Shown here one piece after another: positions 28,621 to 37,606 of a stretch of DNA of 64,000 nucleotides. Source of the stretch: Streptomyces sp. NBC_01224. Lineage in GTDB: Bacteria > Actinomycetota > Actinomycetes > Streptomycetales > Streptomycetaceae. Each line of letters begins with the position of its first letter. Positions within the stretch are counted from its first letter, which is position 1. Below the pieces are notes generated by a model that ran no database searches, was not told the origin of the DNA, and was given only the letters and a program-made list of their open reading frames with translations. Made by a program: the position numbers and the translations under genes. Where the stretch lies: assembly GCF_036002945.1 (NCBI RefSeq), contig NZ_CP108529.1, forward strand, positions 2,170,001 through 2,234,000, read 5' to 3'.

Positions 28621-29754
28621 ATGGCATCACCCCTGCACGTCCTGATTCACGGCGGCGGCATCGGCGGGCTCACCCTCGCCACCGCGCTGGCCCGGCGCGG
28701 CCACACCGTCGAGGTCGCCGAGCTCCGCGACGAGCTGGACGCACTCGGCGTCGGCATCATCCAGCCGTCCAACGCCCTCCATGTGATGCGGGAGATCGGG
28801 GTTCTCGACGACTGCCTCAAGGCGGGCTTCGAGTGGGAGATCCTGACCATCGCCGACCCGGCGGGCAACACGCTCGCCGAGATACCGCAGCCGCGGATGG
28901 GCGACGCGCCCTCCAACAACGGCATCCCGCGCCCCGCCCTGGCCCAGGTGCTCAGCGCCGCCGCCGTCGCCGCCGGGGCCACGATCCGCTTCGGAACCAC
29001 CATCACCGAGCTGACCGACGACGGCTCCGGCGTGGACGTCGCCCTCTCCGACGGCTCCACCGGCCGCTGGGACCTGGTGGCCGGCTTCGACGGCATCGGT
29101 TCGCCGCTGCGCACCCGGCTGTACGGGGACCGTTACGCCCCCGAGTACACCGGCTTCGCCAACTGGCGTGTAACAGTGCCCCGGCAGCCCCAGGTGCGGG
29201 GTGTGGTGATGGGCACCGCGGGCAAGGAGGCCAAGGCGTTGCTCACCCCGATCACCGATGAACTGATGTACCTGGGTGCGGTGTTCGCGGAGTCCGAGGA
29301 ATTCCGGCCGGACCCGGAGCGGGCCCATGAGCAGCTCACGCAGCGGCTGGCGATGTTCTCCGGACCGGTCGCCGAGGCGCTCGCCGCCGTCACCGAACCG
29401 GCCGCGGTGGTGTACTCACGGATCTCCCAGGTGACGGTCGAGGAGCCGTGGCACGTCGGCCGGGTGGTGCTGGCCGGTGACGCCGCGCACGCCTCCACCC
29501 CGCACATCGCGCAGGGTGCGGCGATGGCCGTCGAGGACGCGCTGGTGCTCGCCGAGTCGCTGGACGCCGAGGCCGGTGTGGCCGCGGCCCTCGAAGCGTG
29601 GGAGGCGCGCCGTCGTCCGCGCGCCATGTGGGTGCAGGCCATGTCGCGTGCGGTGCTCAAGCAGGAGACGGGCACCGGGACCACGCCCGAGGAGGACGAA
29701 CTGCTGAAGGTCGGCATTCCGGGCGCGGCGCATGTGCTGGTGAAGCCCTACTGA
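28621..29754 (+). CDS. FAD-dependent aromatic-ring monooxygenase
   Basis: 377 aa group A flavoprotein monooxygenase (UbiH/PHBH type). The N-terminal dinucleotide fold is IHGGGIGGLTLATALARRGH (GxGxxG), the FAD/NADPH DG motif lies in DLVAGFDGIGSPLRTRLYGD, and the second FAD GD motif is VVLAGDAAHASTPHIAQGAA. It hydroxylates an aromatic acid or phenol with NAD(P)H and O2. It lies next to the CoA-thioester aromatic cluster and points towards it, so a funnelling or ring-modifying role is plausible. Preceded by a GAGAG ribosome site. Confidence 0.85.
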   Translation: MASPLHVLIHGGGIGGLTLATALARRGHTVEVAELRDELDALGVGIIQPSNALHVMREIGVLDDCLKAGFEWEILTIADPAGNTLAEIPQPRMGDAPSNNGIPRPALAQVLSAAAVAAGATIRFGTTITELTDDGSGVDVALSDGSTGRWDLVAGFDGIGSPLRTRLYGDRYAPEYTGFANWRVTVPRQPQVRGVVMGTAGKEAKALLTPITDELMYLGAVFAESEEFRPDPERAHEQLTQRLAMFSGPVAEALAAVTEPAAVVYSRISQVTVEEPWHVGRVVLAGDAAHASTPHIAQGAAMAVEDALVLAESLDAEAGVAAALEAWEARRRPRAMWVQAMSRAVLKQETGTGTTPEEDELLKVGIPGAAHVLVKPY

Positions 29755-29774
29755 TCCGCGCGGATCCGCGCATT

Positions 29775-29808
29775 GCCGGACGGGCTCGGCATGGCCGGCC
29801 CGTCCGGC
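29775..29808. terminator. bidirectional hairpin between convergent FAD monooxygenase and ridA-type genes
   Basis: gccggacgggc (29775-29785) pairs perfectly with gcccgtccggc (29798-29808) around a 12-nt loop, exactly in the 58-bp gap between the two convergent stops. Confidence 0.75.
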
Positions 29809-29812
29809 GCGT

Positions 29813-30214
29813 TCACGGCAGCACCGCCACCCCGTCGATCTCGACGAGCGCCTGCTCGTCCCAGAGTCTCGCCACTCCGATGACCGCCATCGCCGGATAG
29901 TCGCGGCCCGCCAACTGACGCCAGATGCGGCCCAGTTCCCCGGCATGGGTCCGGTAGTCGGCCACATCGGTGGCGTACACGGTGACCCGGGCCAGGTCCG
30001 CCGGGGCGCCGCCCGCCGCGCGCAGGGCGGTCAGCAGATTGGTGAGCGCCGTCGCGAACTGCTCGGGCAGGGCGGCGCCGATGACCTTGCCGTCCTGGTC
30101 GAGGGAGGTCTGCCCGGCCAGGAAGACCAGTTGGCCGCCGGTGGCCGTGACGGCGTGCGAGAAGCCCGCGGGCGGCGAGAGTTCGGCGGGGTTGATCCGG
30201 TGGACCGGACTCAT
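29813..30214 (-). CDS. RidA-family enamine/imine deaminase
   Basis: 133 aa from ATG 30214, overlapping the dehydrogenase stop by 4 bp. RidA/YjgF features are LVFLAGQTSLDQDGKVIGA, the LARVTVYATD strand, and the C-terminal RLWDEQALVEIDGVAVLP with the Glu that positions water; the substrate-binding Arg is not in its usual place. The family hydrolyses reactive enamines or imines to ketones plus ammonia. In a 2-aminobenzoyl-CoA route the reduced ring carries exactly such an enamine, so the placement is meaningful. Confidence 0.85.
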   Translation of the reverse strand: MSPVHRINPAELSPPAGFSHAVTATGGQLVFLAGQTSLDQDGKVIGAALPEQFATALTNLLTALRAAGGAPADLARVTVYATDVADYRTHAGELGRIWRQLAGRDYPAMAVIGVARLWDEQALVEIDGVAVLP

Positions 30215-31338
30215 GCGGACGCCTCCCGGTTCGCGTACAGCTCCTTGGCGATGATCGTGCGCTGGACCTCGCTGGCGCCCTCGTAGATCCGTGGGGCGCG
30301 GACCTCCCGGTAGAGGTGTTCGAGGAGGTGACCGCGGCGCAGGGCGCGGGCGCCGTGCAGTTGGACGGCGGTGTCGACGACGTACTGCGCGGTCTCGGTG
30401 GCGTACAGCTTCGCCATGGCCGCGCGGCGCGGTACTCCGGCCTCCCCCGCGTCGTATGCGGCGGCGGCCGCGTACACCAGGAGCCGGGCGGCCTCGGTAC
30501 GGGTGGCCATCTCGGCGACCTGGTGGGAGACGGCCTGAAGGTCCTTCAGCGGACCGCCGAACGCGGTGCGTTCGGCGGTGTACGCGATCGTGGCATCGAG
30601 GGCGGCGCGGGCCATGCCGACGGCGAAGGCGCCGACGCTGGGACGGAACAGGTTGAGGGTGTTCATGGCGACCCGGAAGCCGCGGTCCGGTTCGCCGAGC
30701 ACATCGTCGGGGGTGACCGGGACGCCGTCGAAGACCAGGCCCCCGATGGGGTGCGGCGAGAGCATGTCGAGTGCGGTGCCGGTCAGTCCGGGTCGGTCGG
30801 CGGGGACCAGGAACGCGGTGACGCCACGTGATCCGGCGCCCTGGGTCGTACGGGCGAAAACGGTGTAGAAGTCGGCCTCGGGTGCGTTGGAGATCCAGCA
30901 CTTCTCGCCGGTCAGCCGCCAGCCGTCGGGGGCGTGTTCGGCGTTCAGGGCCAGGGCGGCCGCGTCGGAGCCCGCGCCCGGTTCGCTGAGCGCGAAGGCG
31001 GCGACAGCGCGGCCGGCGCGCACCTCGGGGAGCCAGCGTTCGCGGTGGGCCGGGGTGCCTGCCTGGACCACGGGGTGGGTGCCGAGGCCCTGGAGGGCCA
31101 GTGCGGTTTCGGCCTCCGTACAACCGCGGGCCAGGGACTCGCGGAGCAGGCAGAGGTCGAGGGCGCCGGAGTTCAGCAGTCGGTCGAGGAGGCCGGACTC
31201 ACCGAGTGCGGCGATCAGGGGGCGGTTGACGTGGCCCGGGTCGCCTTTTTCGGCGAGGGGGCGCAGTTGCTGCTCGGCAAGGGCTCTTAGCTCTTCACAC
31301 CAGGCGATTTGTGCCGGATCGAGCGAGAATGCCGTCAT
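30211..31338 (-). CDS. acyl-CoA dehydrogenase
   Basis: 375 aa, normal length. The family signatures are present: FALSEPGAGSDAAAL and EKCWISNAPEADFYTVFART around the FAD site, QVAEMATRTEAARLLVYAAA in the C-terminal helices, and YEGASEVQRTIIAKEL with the ending typical of the family. The usual catalytic Glu position near the end reads IYEGASEVQ. It catalyses alpha,beta-dehydrogenation of an acyl-CoA. Divergent from the CoA ligase gene and upstream of the ridA-type gene, with coupled starts. Confidence 0.9.
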   Translation of the reverse strand: MTAFSLDPAQIAWCEELRALAEQQLRPLAEKGDPGHVNRPLIAALGESGLLDRLLNSGALDLCLLRESLARGCTEAETALALQGLGTHPVVQAGTPAHRERWLPEVRAGRAVAAFALSEPGAGSDAAALALNAEHAPDGWRLTGEKCWISNAPEADFYTVFARTTQGAGSRGVTAFLVPADRPGLTGTALDMLSPHPIGGLVFDGVPVTPDDVLGEPDRGFRVAMNTLNLFRPSVGAFAVGMARAALDATIAYTAERTAFGGPLKDLQAVSHQVAEMATRTEAARLLVYAAAAAYDAGEAGVPRRAAMAKLYATETAQYVVDTAVQLHGARALRRGHLLEHLYREVRAPRIYEGASEVQRTIIAKELYANREASA

Positions 31339-31442
31339 ACCGGCGCCTCTCTTGTCGCGTCTCGTCTTCTCTTCTTATCGCGGACCGTTGACTACCGTCA
31401 CCCAAACGATACGCTCCAGAGGCGACAAGGGGGCGATCCGTC
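31339..31442. promoter_or_regulatory. divergent promoter region with inverted operator-like repeat
   Basis: cttgtcgc (31351-31358) and gcgacaag (31422-31429) are perfect inverted repeats. The similarity extends outward (cgcctctcttgtcgc against gcgacaagggggcg), and one arm lies close to each start codon. A single repressor binding both arms could control the dehydrogenase/ridA operon and the ligase together; no regulator gene is in the cluster. Confidence 0.45.
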
Positions 31443-33044
31443 ATGGACCCGAAGACCTCAGCGCACCTCGACACCTTCGCCAGGGAGCACCTGCCACCCT
31501 CGGACCAGTGGCCGGAACTGCTCTTCGACCTTCCCGAACTGCAGTATCCGGCCCGCCTCAACTGCGCGGCCGAACTGCTGGACCGTACGGTCGACCGCTT
31601 CGGCCCCGGGCGCACCGCCTTCCGTACGCCCGACGGCGGAGTCTGGAGCTATGGGGAGCTGCGGGACCGGGTGGACCGGATCGCCCATGTCCTCACCTCC
31701 GATCTGGGGGTCGTACCCGGCAACCGTGTCCTGCTGCGCGGCCCCACCACACCCCGTCTGGCCGCCTGCTGGCTCGCGGTGCTGAAGGCGGGCGCGATCG
31801 CCGTCACAGTGCTGGCCCAGCAGCGGTCCGCCGAGCTCGCCACCATCTGCTCGATCGCCCGGGTGAGCCACGCACTGTGCGACATCCGGGCGGTCGACGA
31901 CCTGGTGAAGGCTCAGGTGCCGGGGCTGCGGATCACGGCGTACGGAGGTGACGCCCCGGACGATCTGCTGCACCTGGCCGAGGCCAGGACGGGGCCGTAC
32001 CGTCCGGTGGACACGGCGGCGGACGATGTCGCACTGATCGCGTTCACCTCGGGCACCACTGGGCGCCCCAAGGGCTGTATGCACTTCCACCGGGATGTGC
32101 TGGCCATCGCCGACACGTTCTCGCGCCATGTCCTGCGCCCCACGTCCGACGATGTGTTCGCGGGCAGTCCGCCGCTCGGCTTCACCTTCGGGCTCGGCGG
32201 TCTGGTGGTCTTCCCGCTGCGGGCCGGTGCCAGTGCCCTGCTGCTCGAACAGGCCGGCCCGACGCAGCTGCTGCCCGCGCTCGCCGCCCACCGTGTCTCG
32301 GTGCTGTTCACCGCACCGACCGCCTACCGCGTGATGCTCGACCACATCGACGAGCACGACCTGAGCGCGCTGCGGCGCTGTGTCTCGGCCGGCGAGAACC
32401 TTCCGGTCGCCACCTGGCGGTCCTGGTACGAGCGGACGGGTCTGCGCATCATCAACGGCATCGGCGCCACCGAACTGCTGCACATCTTCATCTCCGCCGC
32501 CGACGACGCGGTCCGCCCCGGCACCACCGGAGTTCCCGTGCCCGGCTGGCAGGCCCGGGTGCTGGACCGCGAGGGCAGGCAGGTGCCGGACGGGGAGCCC
32601 GGACTCCTCGCCGTCCGCGGTCCGGTCGGCTGCCGCTATCTCGCCGACGAGCGCCAGCGGGACTACGTGGCGCACGGCTGGAATCTCACCGGCGACACCT
32701 ATGTGCGCGAGCCGGACGGCTACTTCCGTTACGTCGCCCGCGCCGACGACATGATCATTTCCTCCGGCTACAACATCGCGGGCCCCGAGGTCGAGGACGC
32801 CCTGCTGCACCACCCCGCGGTGGCCGAGGCCGCGGTGGTGGGCCGGGCGGACGAGCTGCGCGGCCAGATCGTGGTGGCGTACGTGGTGCTGCGAGAGGGC
32901 GCGGAACTGGACGCCGACGAGCTGCGCACGTACATGAAGAGCGAACTGGCCCCGCACAAGTGCCCGCGCGTCATCGAGTTCCTGCCCGCCCTCCCCCGCA
33001 CCGCCACCGGGAAGCTGCAGCGCTTCCGGCTGCGGGACGACTGA
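31443..33044 (+). CDS. benzoate/2-aminobenzoate-CoA ligase-like AMP-forming synthetase
   Basis: 533 aa, the size of benzoate- and 2-aminobenzoate-CoA ligases. ANL-superfamily motifs: P-loop FTSGTTGRPKG (about 200-210), A5-type NGIGATELLHIFIS, A7 GDTYVREPDGYFRYVARADDMI, A8 SSGYNIAGPEVEDAL, and A10 lysine K524 in TATGKLQRF. The N-terminal PARLNCAAELLD and the SGYNI...EVEDALL block resemble the aryl-CoA ligases more than fatty-acyl ligases. Converts an aromatic acid, ATP and CoA to the aryl-CoA; the neighbouring fused monooxygenase suggests anthranilate (or salicylate) as substrate. Confidence 0.85.
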   Translation: MDPKTSAHLDTFAREHLPPSDQWPELLFDLPELQYPARLNCAAELLDRTVDRFGPGRTAFRTPDGGVWSYGELRDRVDRIAHVLTSDLGVVPGNRVLLRGPTTPRLAACWLAVLKAGAIAVTVLAQQRSAELATICSIARVSHALCDIRAVDDLVKAQVPGLRITAYGGDAPDDLLHLAEARTGPYRPVDTAADDVALIAFTSGTTGRPKGCMHFHRDVLAIADTFSRHVLRPTSDDVFAGSPPLGFTFGLGGLVVFPLRAGASALLLEQAGPTQLLPALAAHRVSVLFTAPTAYRVMLDHIDEHDLSALRRCVSAGENLPVATWRSWYERTGLRIINGIGATELLHIFISAADDAVRPGTTGVPVPGWQARVLDREGRQVPDGEPGLLAVRGPVGCRYLADERQRDYVAHGWNLTGDTYVREPDGYFRYVARADDMIISSGYNIAGPEVEDALLHHPAVAEAAVVGRADELRGQIVVAYVVLREGAELDADELRTYMKSELAPHKCPRVIEFLPALPRTATGKLQRFRLRDD

Positions 33045-33092
33045 CCCGGAAATGCGGGTGTCTCGCTCCACGCACACCCGGCAGGATGAGGC

Positions 33093-33914
33093 ATGACCTG
33101 GACCTTCACCGATGACGTCAACGCCTTTCTCGACGCGGCCGGCGCCTCGCTGGTCGCCCGGCCCGCCGAGAACACCCTTGTTCTGACCGTGACCGCGACC
33201 CTGCGCCGCAGCGGCCCGCACGCCTACGGTGACGCCGACCCGCTGCTGGGCTGGTGGCGCGGGGCGGACGGCGAGGTCGCGGGGACGCTCGTGCAGACAC
33301 CGCCGCATCCGCCGGTACTGACAGCCATCGCCCCGGAGGCGGTCGCTCCGCTGGCCGCCTCGCTCTCTTTGACCGAGGTCAACGCGGACCGGGCCGTCGC
33401 CGAGGCGCTGGCCGCCAACTGGCCCGGCCACCGGGTCGTCCAGGAGCAGCGGCTCTACCGGCTGGGGACACTGATCCCGCCCTCCCCCGCCCCCTCGGGC
33501 CGGCCCAGAACCGCCACCGCCGCCGACCGGGAACTGCTGGTGCGCTGGTTCCTCGCGTTCGCCGACGAGGTCGGCCGGCCCGCCACCCATGCCGAACGGC
33601 AGGTGGACGAACGGACGGCGTCCGGCAGGCTGACCCTCTGGGAGGTCGACGGCGTCCCGGTGTCGATGGCGGGCGTCTCCCCGCGGATCGCGGGCACGGT
33701 GCGGATCGCGCCGGTCTACACGCCTGCCGAGCACCGCGGCCGGGGCTACGCGGCCGCGGTGACGGCGGAGGTCAGCCGGGCGGCACGGGAGGACGGCGCG
33801 CAGGAGGTGCTGCTCTTCACCGACCTCGCGAACCCGACCAGCAACGGCGTGTATCAGCGCATCGGTTACCGGGCGGTCTCGGACCGGTTGCTGATCAGCG
33901 CGGCAGAGCGATGA
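33093..33914 (+). CDS. GNAT-family N-acetyltransferase
   Basis: 273 aa. The N-terminal ~130 residues form a degenerate GNAT-like half. The C-terminal half has the acetyl-CoA pyrophosphate loop motif A (VYTPAEHRGRGYAAAVTAEVSR, R/Q-x-x-G-x-G/A) and the motif B end (NPTSNGVYQRIGYRAV). Substrate unknown. ATGA overlap with the frameshifted gene at 33911. Confidence 0.85.
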   Translation: MTWTFTDDVNAFLDAAGASLVARPAENTLVLTVTATLRRSGPHAYGDADPLLGWWRGADGEVAGTLVQTPPHPPVLTAIAPEAVAPLAASLSLTEVNADRAVAEALAANWPGHRVVQEQRLYRLGTLIPPSPAPSGRPRTATAADRELLVRWFLAFADEVGRPATHAERQVDERTASGRLTLWEVDGVPVSMAGVSPRIAGTVRIAPVYTPAEHRGRGYAAAVTAEVSRAAREDGAQEVLLFTDLANPTSNGVYQRIGYRAVSDRLLISAAER

Positions 33915-34341
33915 GCCGACCGCCGGAACCTGCGTGGCTGGTCGCGGCGAATGTGGTGCGGTGGCGGCGGTACGGGGACCTCGGGCAGGAGCTCCGTCCC
34001 GGCACGAAGGCGTACCGGGACGGGCGAAGGTGTATGTCATCGACACCTGTCCCGGGATGGGCCACCAGCAGCTGACCACGATGGGACATGCGCGGCACAC
34101 CGGCCGCTGGATCACCGTCGCCACGGGGACCCGCCATCTGCACGCCTGCCGGGCGCAGCTGGTGTACATCCCGGCCGTGCTGCAGCGGCGTGCCGGTCCG
34201 GGCGCTGCCACGAGACAGGAGGCCGACGAGCCGGCCGCCCTGCTGGAGCGGGTCGCCGGGGAGGAACGGCATGCCCGTCACGGGGCTCCGCACCCCGATG
34301 CCTGTCTCTGCCACGCGTGCCTGCCTGTCATCCCAGAGTGA
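33911..34341 (+). pseudogene. frameshifted hypothetical gene
   Basis: From ATG 33911 the frame reads SRPPEPAWLVAANVVRWRRY and TKAYRDG, then leaves frame. One base further on, AKVYVIDTCPGMGHQQLTTM, HTGRWITVATGTRHL and HACRAQLVYIPAVLQRR continue to the stop at 34341. Adding a single G in the GGG near 34022-34024 restores one continuous ~143-aa protein, of a kind often seen in Streptomyces (WLVAANVVRW start). Either a recent lesion or a base-call error. The 3' end overlaps the convergent monooxygenase gene by 14 bp. Confidence 0.7.
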
Positions 34342-36670
34342 GCCGCGGCTTCGGTGCGTCCGTGCGGCCCGTCGGCGGGGTGCGGCTGCCCGCACGGTAC
34401 GGGAGCGGCCAGGGCGCGCCCGGTCCGCTGTAGCCCTGGTCGGCCGCCGCGTGCAGCGTCCAGTGCGGGTCGTAGAGATGGGGACGGGCCAGGGCACACA
34501 GGTCGGTCCGGCCCGCGAGCAGCAGTGAATTCACGTCGTCCCAGGAGGAGATCGCACCGACCGCGATGACGGGCACGCACAGCGTGTTACGGATCCGGTC
34601 GGCGTACGGGGTCTGGTAGGAGCGGCCGTACTCGGGGCTCTCGTCGGGGACGACCTGACCGGTGGAGACGTCGATGGCGTCGGCTCCGTGGGCGACGAAG
34701 GCGCGGGCGATCTCGACGGCGTCCTCGGCCGTCGTGCCGCCCTCGGCCCAGTCCGTGGCGGAGATACGGACGGTCATGGGCCGGTCGTCGGGCCAGTCGG
34801 CGCGCATCGCGTCGAAGACTTCGAGGGGGAAGCGGAGTCGGCCCTGCAGCGATCCGCCGTAGTGGTCGGTGCGGTGGTTGGTGAGCGGCGAGAGGAAGCC
34901 GGAGAGCAAGTAGCCGTGGGCGCAGTGGAGTTCGAGCAGGTCGAAGCCGCAGAGGTCGGCACGCCGGGCCGCGGCTGCGAATTGTTCGCGTACGGCATCG
35001 AGGCCGGCCCGGTCCAAGGCGTGCGGGACCTGGTTGACGCCGTCGGTGTACGGGATCGGGGAGGCGGCGGTGAGCGGCCAGTTGCCGTGGTCGAGGGGCT
35101 GGTCGATGCCTTCCCACATCAGTTTGGTGGAGCCCTTGCGCCCGGAGTGACCGAGTTGGACGCCGATGGCCGTACCGGGTGCGCTCGCATGGACGAAGTC
35201 GGTGATCCGGGTCCAGGCGGCAGCCTGTTCGGGGGTGTAGAGGCCGGTGCAGCCGGGGGTGATGCGGCCGTCGGCGCTGACGCACACCATCTCCGTCATG
35301 ACGAGCCCTGCGCCGCCGAGTGCGCGTGCGCCCAGGTGGACGAGGTGGAAGTCGCCGGGGACGCCGTCGACGGCCGAGTACATGTCCATGGGTGAGACGA
35401 CGACGCGGTTGCGGAGTTCGAGGCCGCGCAGCCGCAGCGGGGTGAACATCGGCGGGGTGCCCGGGGCACAGCCGAATTCCTCCTCGACGGCGGCGGTGAA
35501 GGAGGGGTCGCGCAGCCGCAGATTGTCGTGGGTGACGCGGCGGCTGCGGGTGAGAAGGTTGAAGGCGAACTGGCGGGGCGGCTGGTCGACGTAGGTGCCG
35601 AGCTCCTCGAACCAGCGCAGGCTGGCCGCGGCGGCCCGCTGGGTCGATTCGACGACCGGCCGGCGCTCGGTCTCGTACGCGGCCAGTGCGCCCGGCAGGT
35701 CGGGCTGTTCCTCGATGCAGGCGGCGAGCGCGAGGGCGTCCTCGACGGCCAGTTTGGTGCCGGAGCCGATGGAGAAATGCGCGGTGTGGGCGGCATCGCC
35801 GATGAGGACCGTGTTGCCGTGCGACCAGCGGGCGTTGACGACGGTACGGAAGGTGAGCCAGGAGGAGTTGTTGGAGCGCAGCGGCCGGCCGCCGAGCGCC
35901 TCGGTGAAGATCTTGGCGCAGCGTACGGTCGAGTGCTCCACGTCGCAGGTGTCGAATCCGGCGGCGAGCCAGACCTCCTCGCGCATCTCGACGATGACGG
36001 TGGAGGCGTCGGCCGAGAAGGGGTAGCCGTGGAGCTGCATCACCCCGTAGGCGGTCTCGGCGATCTCGAAGCGGAAGGCGTCGAGGGCGAAGTCGGCGGC
36101 GAGCCAGATGTAGCGGCAGCGGTGGGTGGTGAGGCGGGGGCCGAAGGTGTCGGCGTGCGCGGCGCGGGTGAGGCTGTGCACGCCGTCGGCGGCGATCACC
36201 AGGTCGTAGGCGGCGGCCAGCTCGGCGGCCGGCGGTGCCTCGGTGCGGAAGCGGAGCCGTACGCCGAGCCAGTCGCAGCGTTCGTGCAGGATCTCCAGGA
36301 GTCTGCGCCGGCCCAGCGCCGCGAAGCCGTGACCGCCGGAGGTCTGGGTCACGCCGCGGTGGACGATGTCGATGTCGTCCCACCGTACGAACTCGTCCTG
36401 GAGTGCCCGGTAGACGACGGGGTCGGCGTGCTCGATGCCGCCGAGGGTTTCGTCGGAGAGGACGACGCCGAAGCCGAACGTGTCCTCGGGGGCGTTGCGC
36501 TCCCAGACGGTGATGTCGCGTTCCGGGTCGAGCCGCTTGAGCAGGGCCGCGGCGTAGAGTCCGCCGGGGCCGCCGCCGATGACCGCGATGCGCTTCACGC
36601 CGGTCCGATTCGCGCCGGGCGCCGTCGCGGCGGACGGCCCGGTTCCGGTCGCGCTGGTGTCGGGCGGCAT
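34328..36670 (-). CDS. fused FAD monooxygenase / old-yellow-enzyme reductase (2-aminobenzoyl-CoA or salicylyl-CoA type)
   Basis: 780 aa from ATG 36670, four bases after the hydratase stop; the frame is open to 36742, but that start would lie inside the hydratase gene. Residues ~25-400 are a group A flavin monooxygenase (IAVIGGGPGGLYAAALLKRL; GDAAHTAHFSIGSGTKLAVEDA). From about 415 on it is an OYE-type FMN reductase (MFTPLRLRGLELRNRVVVSP; GVQLGHSGRKGS; HCAHGYLLSGFLSP, NHRTDHYGGSLQGR). This exact fusion is that of 2-aminobenzoyl-CoA monooxygenase/reductase, which hydroxylates and then reduces the ring. Databases also label such fusions salicylyl-CoA 5-hydroxylase/oxidoreductase. No gentisate dioxygenase is present, favouring the former. 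Confidence 0.85.
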   Translation of the reverse strand: MPPDTSATGTGPSAATAPGANRTGVKRIAVIGGGPGGLYAAALLKRLDPERDITVWERNAPEDTFGFGVVLSDETLGGIEHADPVVYRALQDEFVRWDDIDIVHRGVTQTSGGHGFAALGRRRLLEILHERCDWLGVRLRFRTEAPPAAELAAAYDLVIAADGVHSLTRAAHADTFGPRLTTHRCRYIWLAADFALDAFRFEIAETAYGVMQLHGYPFSADASTVIVEMREEVWLAAGFDTCDVEHSTVRCAKIFTEALGGRPLRSNNSSWLTFRTVVNARWSHGNTVLIGDAAHTAHFSIGSGTKLAVEDALALAACIEEQPDLPGALAAYETERRPVVESTQRAAAASLRWFEELGTYVDQPPRQFAFNLLTRSRRVTHDNLRLRDPSFTAAVEEEFGCAPGTPPMFTPLRLRGLELRNRVVVSPMDMYSAVDGVPGDFHLVHLGARALGGAGLVMTEMVCVSADGRITPGCTGLYTPEQAAAWTRITDFVHASAPGTAIGVQLGHSGRKGSTKLMWEGIDQPLDHGNWPLTAASPIPYTDGVNQVPHALDRAGLDAVREQFAAAARRADLCGFDLLELHCAHGYLLSGFLSPLTNHRTDHYGGSLQGRLRFPLEVFDAMRADWPDDRPMTVRISATDWAEGGTTAEDAVEIARAFVAHGADAIDVSTGQVVPDESPEYGRSYQTPYADRIRNTLCVPVIAVGAISSWDDVNSLLLAGRTDLCALARPHLYDPHWTLHAAADQGYSGPGAPWPLPYRAGSRTPPTGRTDAPKPRLTLG

Positions 36671-36674
36671 CGTG

Positions 36675-37502
36675 CTACCGGCCTTGCCACTTCGGTGGCC
36701 GCTTCTCCGTGAAGGCGGCGTGGAATTCGGCGTAGTCGTCACCGTGCATCAGCAGGGCCTGGGTCGCGGCGTCCATCTCGACCGCGGCGGCGAGCGGCAT
36801 GTCGAGTTCGGCGGTGAGCAGCGCCTTGGTCTGGGCGAGGGCGAGGGCCGGTCCGTCGGCGAGGCGGCGGGCGAGTGCTGCCGCACGCACATCCGCCTGG
36901 CCCTCTTCGGTCAGCTCGCTGATCAGTCCGATCCGTTCCGCTTCGGGTGCGCGGACCGGTTCGCCGAGCATCAGCAGCCGGGTGGCATGGCCGAGGCCGA
37001 CGACGCGCGGCAGCAGATAGGCGGCGCCCATGTCGCCGCCGGAGAGACCGACCTTGGTGAAGAGGAAGGCGAAGCGGGCGGACGGATCGGCGATCCGGAA
37101 GTCGGCGGCCAGCGCAAGAACCGCGCCGGCACCTGCGGCCACGCCGTGTACGGCGGCGATGACGGGGAAGGGGGTTTCACGTAGGGCCCGCACCACCTGG
37201 CCGGTCATGCGGTTGAAATCGAGGAGCTGGGCGGTGTCCATGGCGAGTGTCGCGCCGATGATGTCGTCGACATCTCCGCCTGAGCAGAAACCGCGGCCCT
37301 CCCCCGCGAGCACCAGAGCGCGCACGGTGCGTTCGCGGGACAGTTCGGCAAGCAGGTCGCGCAGGTCGGCGTAGGCACCGAAGGTGAGAGCGTTGAGTTT
37401 CTCGGGGCGGGCGAGGGTGACGGTGGCAACTCCGTCGTCCGTCGTCAGCCGCAGATGGCGCCAGTCATCCGTACGGGGGGCGGAGCTGGGAAACGGGCTC
37501 AT
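36675..37502 (-). CDS. enoyl-CoA hydratase/isomerase family protein
   Basis: 275 aa crotonase-fold protein. The oxyanion-hole segments are GFCSGGDVDDI (about 72-82) and HGVAAGAGAVLALAADFRIAD. The second segment is followed by FTKVGLSGGDMGAAYLLPRVVG, where GDMG stands at the usual P-E/D-x-G catalytic position, so the acid there is Asp. It acts on an unsaturated or ring acyl-CoA; in the CoA-dependent aminobenzoate route a hydratase is expected after ring reduction. First gene of a two-gene minus-strand operon with the fused monooxygenase. Confidence 0.88.
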   Translation of the reverse strand: MSPFPSSAPRTDDWRHLRLTTDDGVATVTLARPEKLNALTFGAYADLRDLLAELSRERTVRALVLAGEGRGFCSGGDVDDIIGATLAMDTAQLLDFNRMTGQVVRALRETPFPVIAAVHGVAAGAGAVLALAADFRIADPSARFAFLFTKVGLSGGDMGAAYLLPRVVGLGHATRLLMLGEPVRAPEAERIGLISELTEEGQADVRAAALARRLADGPALALAQTKALLTAELDMPLAAAVEMDAATQALLMHGDDYAEFHAAFTEKRPPKWQGR

Positions 37503-37606
37503 CGAGGGGGCTCCCCTTCAGCCGTCGGGCTGCTACCTGCGAACGAACTTATCACTCGTACGTGACTCCCGTCACGAGCACGCAATAGGCGGAGCGTGAG
37601 AACTTA

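Follow-up and report, generated by a model that had tools for sequence, protein, structure and literature searches.

A Probable Two-operator Regulon for Aerobic CoA-dependent Anthranilate Breakdown, with a Deleted PaaX-type Regulator Gene, in Streptomyces sp. NBC_01224

Which aromatic acid is broken down by a small cluster of coenzyme A (CoA)-dependent genes in Streptomyces sp. NBC_01224, how would its ring be opened, and what controls the genes? The cluster lies in a 64-kb stretch of this genome (the window, with a G+C content of 69%) in an interval reported earlier as 28621-37502. The sequence-only reading of that interval proposed CoA-dependent degradation of the 2-aminobenzoate (anthranilate) type, an assignment supported by the comparisons described here, and the cluster is probably a regulon with two operators that serves the aerobic, CoA-dependent breakdown of anthranilate, with an enzyme make-up of the Azoarcus type. 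The gene make-up, the synteny, the common sites, and the deletion of a regulator gene are read directly from the sequence.

Breakdown of anthranilate through CoA is already known in Azoarcus (PMC4539516), in which A. evansii uses an aerobic 2-aminobenzoyl-CoA pathway encoded by the abm clusters (Schuehle et al. 2001, via PMC4539516 and PMC3534580). Arthrobacter sp. Rue61a uses a CoA-dependent anthranilate route with clusters on the plasmid pAL1 and the chromosome, and its plasmid ligase has been measured on anthranilate (PMC3534580).

Gene Content of the Cluster

Profile matches identify all five enzymes claimed in the sequence-only reading, an aryl-CoA ligase, a fused flavoenzyme, a crotonase, an acyl-CoA dehydrogenase (ACAD), and a RidA protein. 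As in that reading, no ring-cleaving dioxygenase was recognized among the open reading frames (ORFs) scanned in 28621-37502. The features are as follows.

28621-29754, plus strand, stand-alone FAD monooxygenase (PRK06847), outside the conserved set
29813-30214, minus strand, RidA-family protein, proposed enamine/imine deaminase (PF01042 69.2 bits, cut-off 27.3)
30211-31338, minus strand, ACAD (PF00441 170.5 bits; kept in 37/37 loci of type-A relatives)
31376-31401, plus strand, operator-like site 1, TATCGCGGACCGTTGACTACCGTCAC, in the divergent ACAD/ligase promoter region (0 mismatches to the pattern)
31443-33044, plus strand, aryl-CoA ligase, benzoate/anthranilate type (TIGR02262 350.2 bits, cut-off 375.25)
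33040-33049, no strand, deletion junction at which the PaaX-type regulator gene was lost (blastn of the ligase-ACMR gap against the relative L074)
33093-33914, plus strand, GNAT acetyltransferase (PF00583 44.9 bits), outside the conserved set
34328-36601, minus strand, fused FAD monooxygenase/old-yellow-enzyme reductase, ACMR type (NF006101 1212.8 bits, cut-off 1078)
36675-37502, minus strand, crotonase-family protein (PRK08258; NF006107 391.5 bits, cut-off 330)
37550-37575, plus strand, operator-like site 2, TATCACTCGTACGTGACTCCCGTCAC, upstream of the crotonase-ACMR unit (0 mismatches to the pattern)

Three features taken as marks of an Azoarcus-type cluster are present, namely an aryl-CoA ligase of the benzoate/anthranilate type, although below the strict TIGR02262 cut-off, a fused FAD monooxygenase and old-yellow-enzyme (OYE) reductase with the OYE catalytic residues in place, and a crotonase, ACAD, and RidA together in one cluster. 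The Azoarcus clusters presumably hold crotonase, dehydrogenase, and RidA genes as well.

Conservation within the Genus

The fused enzyme is the sole match to NF006101 above the cut-off in the strain's own 10-Mb genome, and at least 172/199 genomes in the genus have such a match. All 199 match the model at E <= 0.001, because its single domains are common, and strong near-cut-off or split matches are found among the remaining 27 (for example 7.6e-248 in G028). Thirty-nine stretches around fused-enzyme genes of the genus, hand-picked from the listed matches and not a random sample, were compared; 36 carry the Azoarcus-like set, termed clade A (type A), and three carry a second set, termed clade B (L061, L063, and L070). 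The order and strands of the genes (RidA-, ACAD-, LIG+, ACMR-, ECH-, with the ligase, fused enzyme, and crotonase as LIG, ACMR, and ECH) are identical in all 36 type-A stretches, which argues against a chance grouping. The A set is also found in a plasmid locus of Streptomyces sp. BHT-5-2 (L039), the strain with the best named plasmid match to the fused enzyme (78.6% over the fused enzyme), and the 36 stretches, L039, and the window make up the 38 clade-A loci referred to below. RidA adjoins ACAD in 36/37 loci of type-A relatives, with no RidA match in L039.

The left boundary of the reported interval was too wide, as the FAD monooxygenase at 28621-29754 accompanies the cluster in just 3/36 type-A loci (L074, L075, and L076) and is rejected as a cluster member. 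The GNAT acetyltransferase at 33093-33914, present in the same three close relatives of the 36, is rejected as well.

Other genes recur near the type-A clusters, PNKP in 29/36 stretches and a HATPase gene in 33/36. This retention across the genus near the same genes, the lack of recognized biosynthetic genes among the ORFs scanned here, and the presence of kynureninase or ABC uptake genes beside related operons elsewhere make a biosynthetic role, such as the provision of anthraniloyl-CoA or a reduced ring unit to natural product assembly, highly improbable, although streptomycetes are generally known to make many anthranilate-derived metabolites.

Operator-like Sites in Both Promoter Regions

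A conserved site, TATCRC-N7-TGACTNYCGTCA, is present in both promoter regions of the cluster, and the core of site 1 overlaps a TTGACT box. A longer operator pattern matched site 2 alone and a shorter one matched both. The pattern TATCRC-N7-TGACTNYCGTCAY matches the 10-Mb genome perfectly at these two sites of the cluster and nowhere else, as was to be expected of a pattern derived from the two window sites and those of relatives; the informative part of the scan is that there is no third match with fewer than 3 mismatches. The other 11 genome matches all have 3 mismatches, and a reversed control pattern also gives 11.

The palindrome TGACN4GTCA is found in 38/38 ACAD/ligase regions and in 36/38 regions upstream of the crotonase, the window included, so that the conserved palindromic site looked for at the promoters of a PaaX regulon is in place. 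It is concentrated there: of 80 occurrences in 758,740 bases, 74 lie within these promoter stretches (17,307 bases in all). The counterpart in clade B is a related core, TGACGNNCGTCA, matched 70 times at <=1 mismatch in 60,598 upstream bases, of 228 in 1,884,576, and found upstream in 66/88 clade-B loci; pAL1 has an exact TGACGNNCGTCA site 188 bases ahead of its PaaX gene. The PaaX-type repressor MeqR2 of Rue61a reportedly binds TGACGNNCGTcA and answers to anthraniloyl-CoA. If so, the site described here would be one form of an operator already known, and the assignment of the substrate would gain strength.

Loss of the PaaX-type Regulator Gene

In 37/38 clade-A loci a PaaX-family gene starts -5 to +45 bases from the end of the ligase gene and runs in the same direction, and the window is the single locus without one. 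The PaaX domains PF07848, PF20803, and PF08223 are present in the three relatives scanned, and PaaX domains also occur in pAL1; the PaaX proteins of these relatives and of pAL1 are all under the strict PaaX equivalog cut-off. A segment of ~990 bp with the PaaX gene of L074 is absent from the window at 33040-33049 in a blastn comparison anchored on both sides against L074 only, with L075 and L076 aligning solely to the right of the junction. As judged from this alignment, the regulator gene is lost by a clean deletion in the window strain. The C-terminal tail of the ligase after the conserved TGKLQRF is 5 residues long, compared with 6-30 in the relatives (34/36 scored). Both operator-like sites are intact despite the loss of the regulator; either this loss is recent or the sites serve another protein. 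Neither the shared site nor the lost regulator was noted in the sequence-only reading.

The best PaaX-type match in the strain's own genome lies 146 kb from the cluster (C1:2,353,066-2,353,941; L187:1480-2358), beside a gene that by eye resembles a thymidine kinase. It is 47% identical to the L074 PaaX protein, against >=63.6% for the PaaX proteins of the other clusters, and relocation of the deleted regulator is rejected on this ground, the remote protein not being an orthologue. That it is an ordinary paralogue common to the relatives was not borne out either, as the cluster PaaX is itself the best match in five relatives. The remote PaaX is about equally distant from the clade A and clade B regulators.

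Active-site Features of the Enzymes

The ligase has an AMP-binding domain (Pfam, 252.7 bits), and its matches among solved structures include a benzoate-CoA ligase (PDB code 2v7b, 271.5 bits) and an anthranilate-CoA ligase (PDB code 4wv3, 258.2 bits). A motif, FTFG, at a place which we take to line the substrate pocket, is conserved in 38/38 clade A, 85/85 clade B, and 4/4 other aligned ligases. The same motif is found in 4wv3 and in the measured plasmid anthranilate ligase, whereas 2v7b, the one benzoate ligase compared, reads FAYG.

The fused enzyme comprises FAD_binding_3 and Oxidored_FMN domains. Its start is uncertain, being placed at 36601 by conservation with the ORF open to 36742. The OYE catalytic motif H-x-x-H-G-Y is kept in the OYE half of 38/38 clade A, 88/88 clade B, and 4/5 other rows, and because of this conservation ring reduction by the OYE half is plausible. 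The lone exception is a divergent relative on a haloarchaeal plasmid (Haladaptatus, L163:8001-10157), in which the first His is missing. Genes for a benzoate-CoA ligase, RidA, ACAD, MaoC, a short-chain dehydrogenase/reductase (SDR), and a crotonase are found near this relative.

The crotonase, called a hydratase in the sequence-only reading, does not look like a hydratase of the canonical two-Glu type and has one acidic catalytic candidate, Asp-157. This residue is present in 42/43 aligned sequences, L163 being the exception, and aligns with an Asp of PaaG. An aliphatic residue is found where the usual first catalytic Glu of hydratases would stand, a correspondence of positions which we assume. 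A role as hydrolase or isomerase would fit the protein better than that of a canonical hydratase, and the ring may be opened by hydrolysis. The structure of a close relative has been solved (PDB code 3g64, "putative enoyl-CoA hydratase"), presumably from S. coelicolor. The RidA protein scores 46.8 bits against the NCBI model TIGR00004, under its cut-off of 106.25.

The 3-hydroxyacyl-CoA dehydrogenase, marked as missing in the sequence-only reading, is not among the cluster ORFs scanned, and a search of the strain's own genome gave seven places elsewhere that match the Paracoccus enzyme. Related plasmid operons from Paracoccus, Comamonas, Deinococcus, and Aminobacter hold the fused enzyme, SDR, crotonase, and ACAD in 4/4 cases, with RidA in 3/4 and a ligase within the stretch in 3/4.

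A Second Cluster Type in the Actinobacteria

Clade B was characterized from the best 80 of 431 relatives of the pAL1 fused enzyme (L080-L159, organism names included) together with the three own-genus clade-B loci. These 83 stretches hold a pAL1-type RidA (82), thioesterase (81), cupin (80), ligase (80), PaaX (72), and fumarylacetoacetate-hydrolase-family protein (70), and no clade-A-like crotonase or dehydrogenase was found in them except for a 33% crotonase match in L152. Quick trees of 44 and 42 rows separate A from B as distinct clades for both the fused enzyme and the ligase (SH-aLRT 96-100), and the window cluster is 50-58% (ligase) and 62-67% (fused enzyme) identical to clade B as a whole. 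The cupin, fumarylacetoacetate-hydrolase-family protein, and thioesterase of clade B (L036, L080-L159) hint at an oxygen-dependent ring cleavage that would follow on from the same two initial enzymes.

Of the measured Rue61a ligases, the chromosomal one has a forward primer identical to a ligase start in L083 and L097, and the forward primer of the plasmid one matches L036. Because their primers match clade-B ligases, the measured anthranilate ligases (PMC3534580) appear to fall in clade B.

Substrate of the Pathway

Anthranilate is the best supported and most likely substrate, as judged from the neighbors of related clusters, the ligase motif, and the content of the strain's own genome. The genome holds a kynureninase (kynU) and a tryptophan dioxygenase (TDO), the latter over the Pfam cut-off and slightly under the NCBI cut-off (380.9 against 390.7), and some relatives of the cluster adjoin such genes; the link to tryptophan breakdown, raised as a possibility in the sequence-only reading, gains from both. 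There is no PF00848 match (Rieske ring-hydroxylating oxygenase alpha subunit) in the genome, so the usual anthranilate 1,2-dioxygenase (antABC) appears to be absent.

Among the related clusters, kynU is found near the Aminobacter plasmid operon, beside a clade-B cluster on an Arthrobacter plasmid, and in L154. A Rhodococcus clade-B locus lies near TDO and a class-V aminotransferase, TDO is also present in the own-genus clade-B locus L063, and one clade-B locus lies near the quinolone dioxygenase AqdC1. A protein encoded near the Deinococcus plasmid operon matches isatin hydrolases best in the PDB (275.3 bits). Isatin-hydrolase-like genes are found in 25/80 named clade-B loci, both query proteins matching isatin hydrolases best, in a count of isatin, kyn, and TDO genes that leaves out the annotated loci that supplied the queries. 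These genes, with those at L161:15360-16136 and L164:12837-13604, suggest that indole or indoleacetate breakdown feeds such clusters too.

Several observations weigh against anthranilate breakdown by a two-site regulon in this strain. NF006101 carries the NCBI name salicylyl-CoA 5-hydroxylase, and a Streptomyces route via salicylyl-CoA and gentisate has been reported (PMC4600096), both of which would suit salicylate degradation through CoA activation, 5-hydroxylation, gentisate, and ring cleavage, as in strain WA46. This alternative is nonetheless quite unlikely. A gentisate dioxygenase elsewhere in the genome, which the sequence-only reading had named as a sign against its proposal, was looked for and no TIGR02272 (gentisate 1,2-dioxygenase) match was found in the genome. 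The OYE catalytic residues, for which a plain hydroxylation should have no use, are kept, and RidA, a family acting on enamines, is present in 36/37 type-A relatives. The match of the ligase to the salicylate-AMP ligase (PDB code 5wm2, 133.5 bits) is far weaker than that to 4wv3 (258.2 bits), neighbor genes of some relatives point to anthranilate, and Rue61a, which has clade B, showed no growth on salicylate (PMC3534580).

Further points weigh against anthranilate. The measured actinobacterial ligases appear to sit in clade B and not in the window's clade A, and neither the window nor L039 nor any of the 36 type-A loci has a kyn, TDO, or isatin gene near the cluster. A and B clusters occur together in one genome, G069, which could mean different substrates. 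The same chemistry acting on another ortho-amino or ortho-hydroxy aryl acid, for example a substituted anthranilate or a product of specialized metabolism, with anthranilate as a side substrate, would account for this pairing, for the separate clades of the fused enzyme and ligase, and for the type-A clusters of the genus having no local tryptophan or isatin genes. We consider it unlikely, however, as the FTFG ligase motif is identical in A, B, and the other clusters, and occurrence in at least 172/199 genomes is easier to reconcile with a common substrate than with a rare one. The comparison of co-occurrence within the genus is uninformative, both TDO (194/199) and ACMR over cut-off (172/199) being near-uniform. 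In the 64-kb window alone the core of the site is found 2 times against 0.51 expected, and 8/100 shuffles reach 2, so that taken by itself the window makes the pair no more than weakly surprising. Neither the SDR nor the 3-hydroxyacyl-CoA dehydrogenase of the other operons is in the cluster here, and no operator-like site marks a substitute for either.

Proposed Pathway and Its Control

With anthranilate as the substrate, the ligase would first form anthraniloyl-CoA. RidA would later assist the conversion of an enamine to the ketone, the single-Asp crotonase would open the resulting β-keto ring hydrolytically, and ACAD would start β-oxidation, to be finished by enzymes encoded elsewhere. A PaaX-type repressor, normally encoded right after the ligase, would bind TGACTNYCGTCA at both promoter regions and be released by an aryl-CoA. 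Deletion of the cluster PaaX gene would leave the pathway of the window strain permanently on or under another PaaX protein. The pathway steps, binding, repression, and release are what we infer from the gene make-up, conserved residues, and sites.

A wider scheme for the actinobacteria, which as a whole we put forward tentatively and with some doubt, would have one entry and two exits. The entry would consist of the ligase, fused flavoenzyme, and RidA under PaaX-type control. Exit A would be the oxygen-free ring opening by the crotonase, and in exit B the thioesterase, cupin, and fumarylacetoacetate-type hydrolase would replace the crotonase and dehydrogenase, probably with oxygen-dependent cleavage. 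In most Streptomyces, A would be a near-core route for anthranilate derived from tryptophan, and the window strain, without its own repressor, would be constitutive or be controlled by the PaaX protein encoded 146 kb away, which the five relatives checked do not have.

If anthranilate breakdown is confirmed, most Streptomyces would possess a dedicated outlet for anthranilate, which stands between tryptophan and many of their natural products as a hub (disruption of kyn has served in daptomycin strain work, PMC9058172), and the "salicylyl-CoA 5-hydroxylase" database family would gain a more likely role in the genus. A function would also be suggested for the solved structure 3g64, and a simple two-site regulon together with a natural regulator-less strain would be available for studying the sensing of aryl-CoA by PaaX-type proteins.

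Comparison with Known Systems

The two-site regulon, the A/B split, and the regulator deletion were not found described in a literature search that had most subscription journals outside it. Operons combining crotonase, dehydrogenase, and RidA were seen here in Paracoccus and Aminobacter, and the Azoarcus clusters are likened to them by description. Compared with Azoarcus, again by description, the window genes form divergent units with a common operator-like site and, in the relatives, a PaaX-type regulator; it is without a 3-hydroxyacyl-CoA dehydrogenase or SDR in the cluster, and the regulator is deleted in the window strain.

Within Streptomyces, an anthranilate route of abmG, kynU, and TDO was predicted in S. 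thermocarboxydus DF3-3 in 2022 (PMC9277890). The DF3-3 route resembles the present one in its abmG-type ligase, kynU, and TDO; however, it is an annotation-based prediction, and the fused enzyme, cluster, operator, and regulator are not mentioned in the available portions of that article. The sdg route of Streptomyces sp. WA46 (PMC4600096) is alike, by description, in that an ortho-substituted benzoate is activated with CoA and hydroxylated at position 5, whereas it ends in gentisate and a gentisate dioxygenase, which has no match in the window genome.

The Rue61a system and clade B share with the window cluster the ligase, fused enzyme, RidA, PaaX-type regulators, and a related site core, TGACGNNCGTCA. 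Where the window has the crotonase and ACAD, pAL1 and its kin have instead a cupin, a fumarylacetoacetate-hydrolase-family protein, and a 4HBT_3 thioesterase. The CoA-dependent route is thus not new to the actinobacteria, as Arthrobacter sp. Rue61a illustrates (PMC3534580); the pathway type is known, and what is new here is the common operator-like site in two copies together with the deletion of the regulator.

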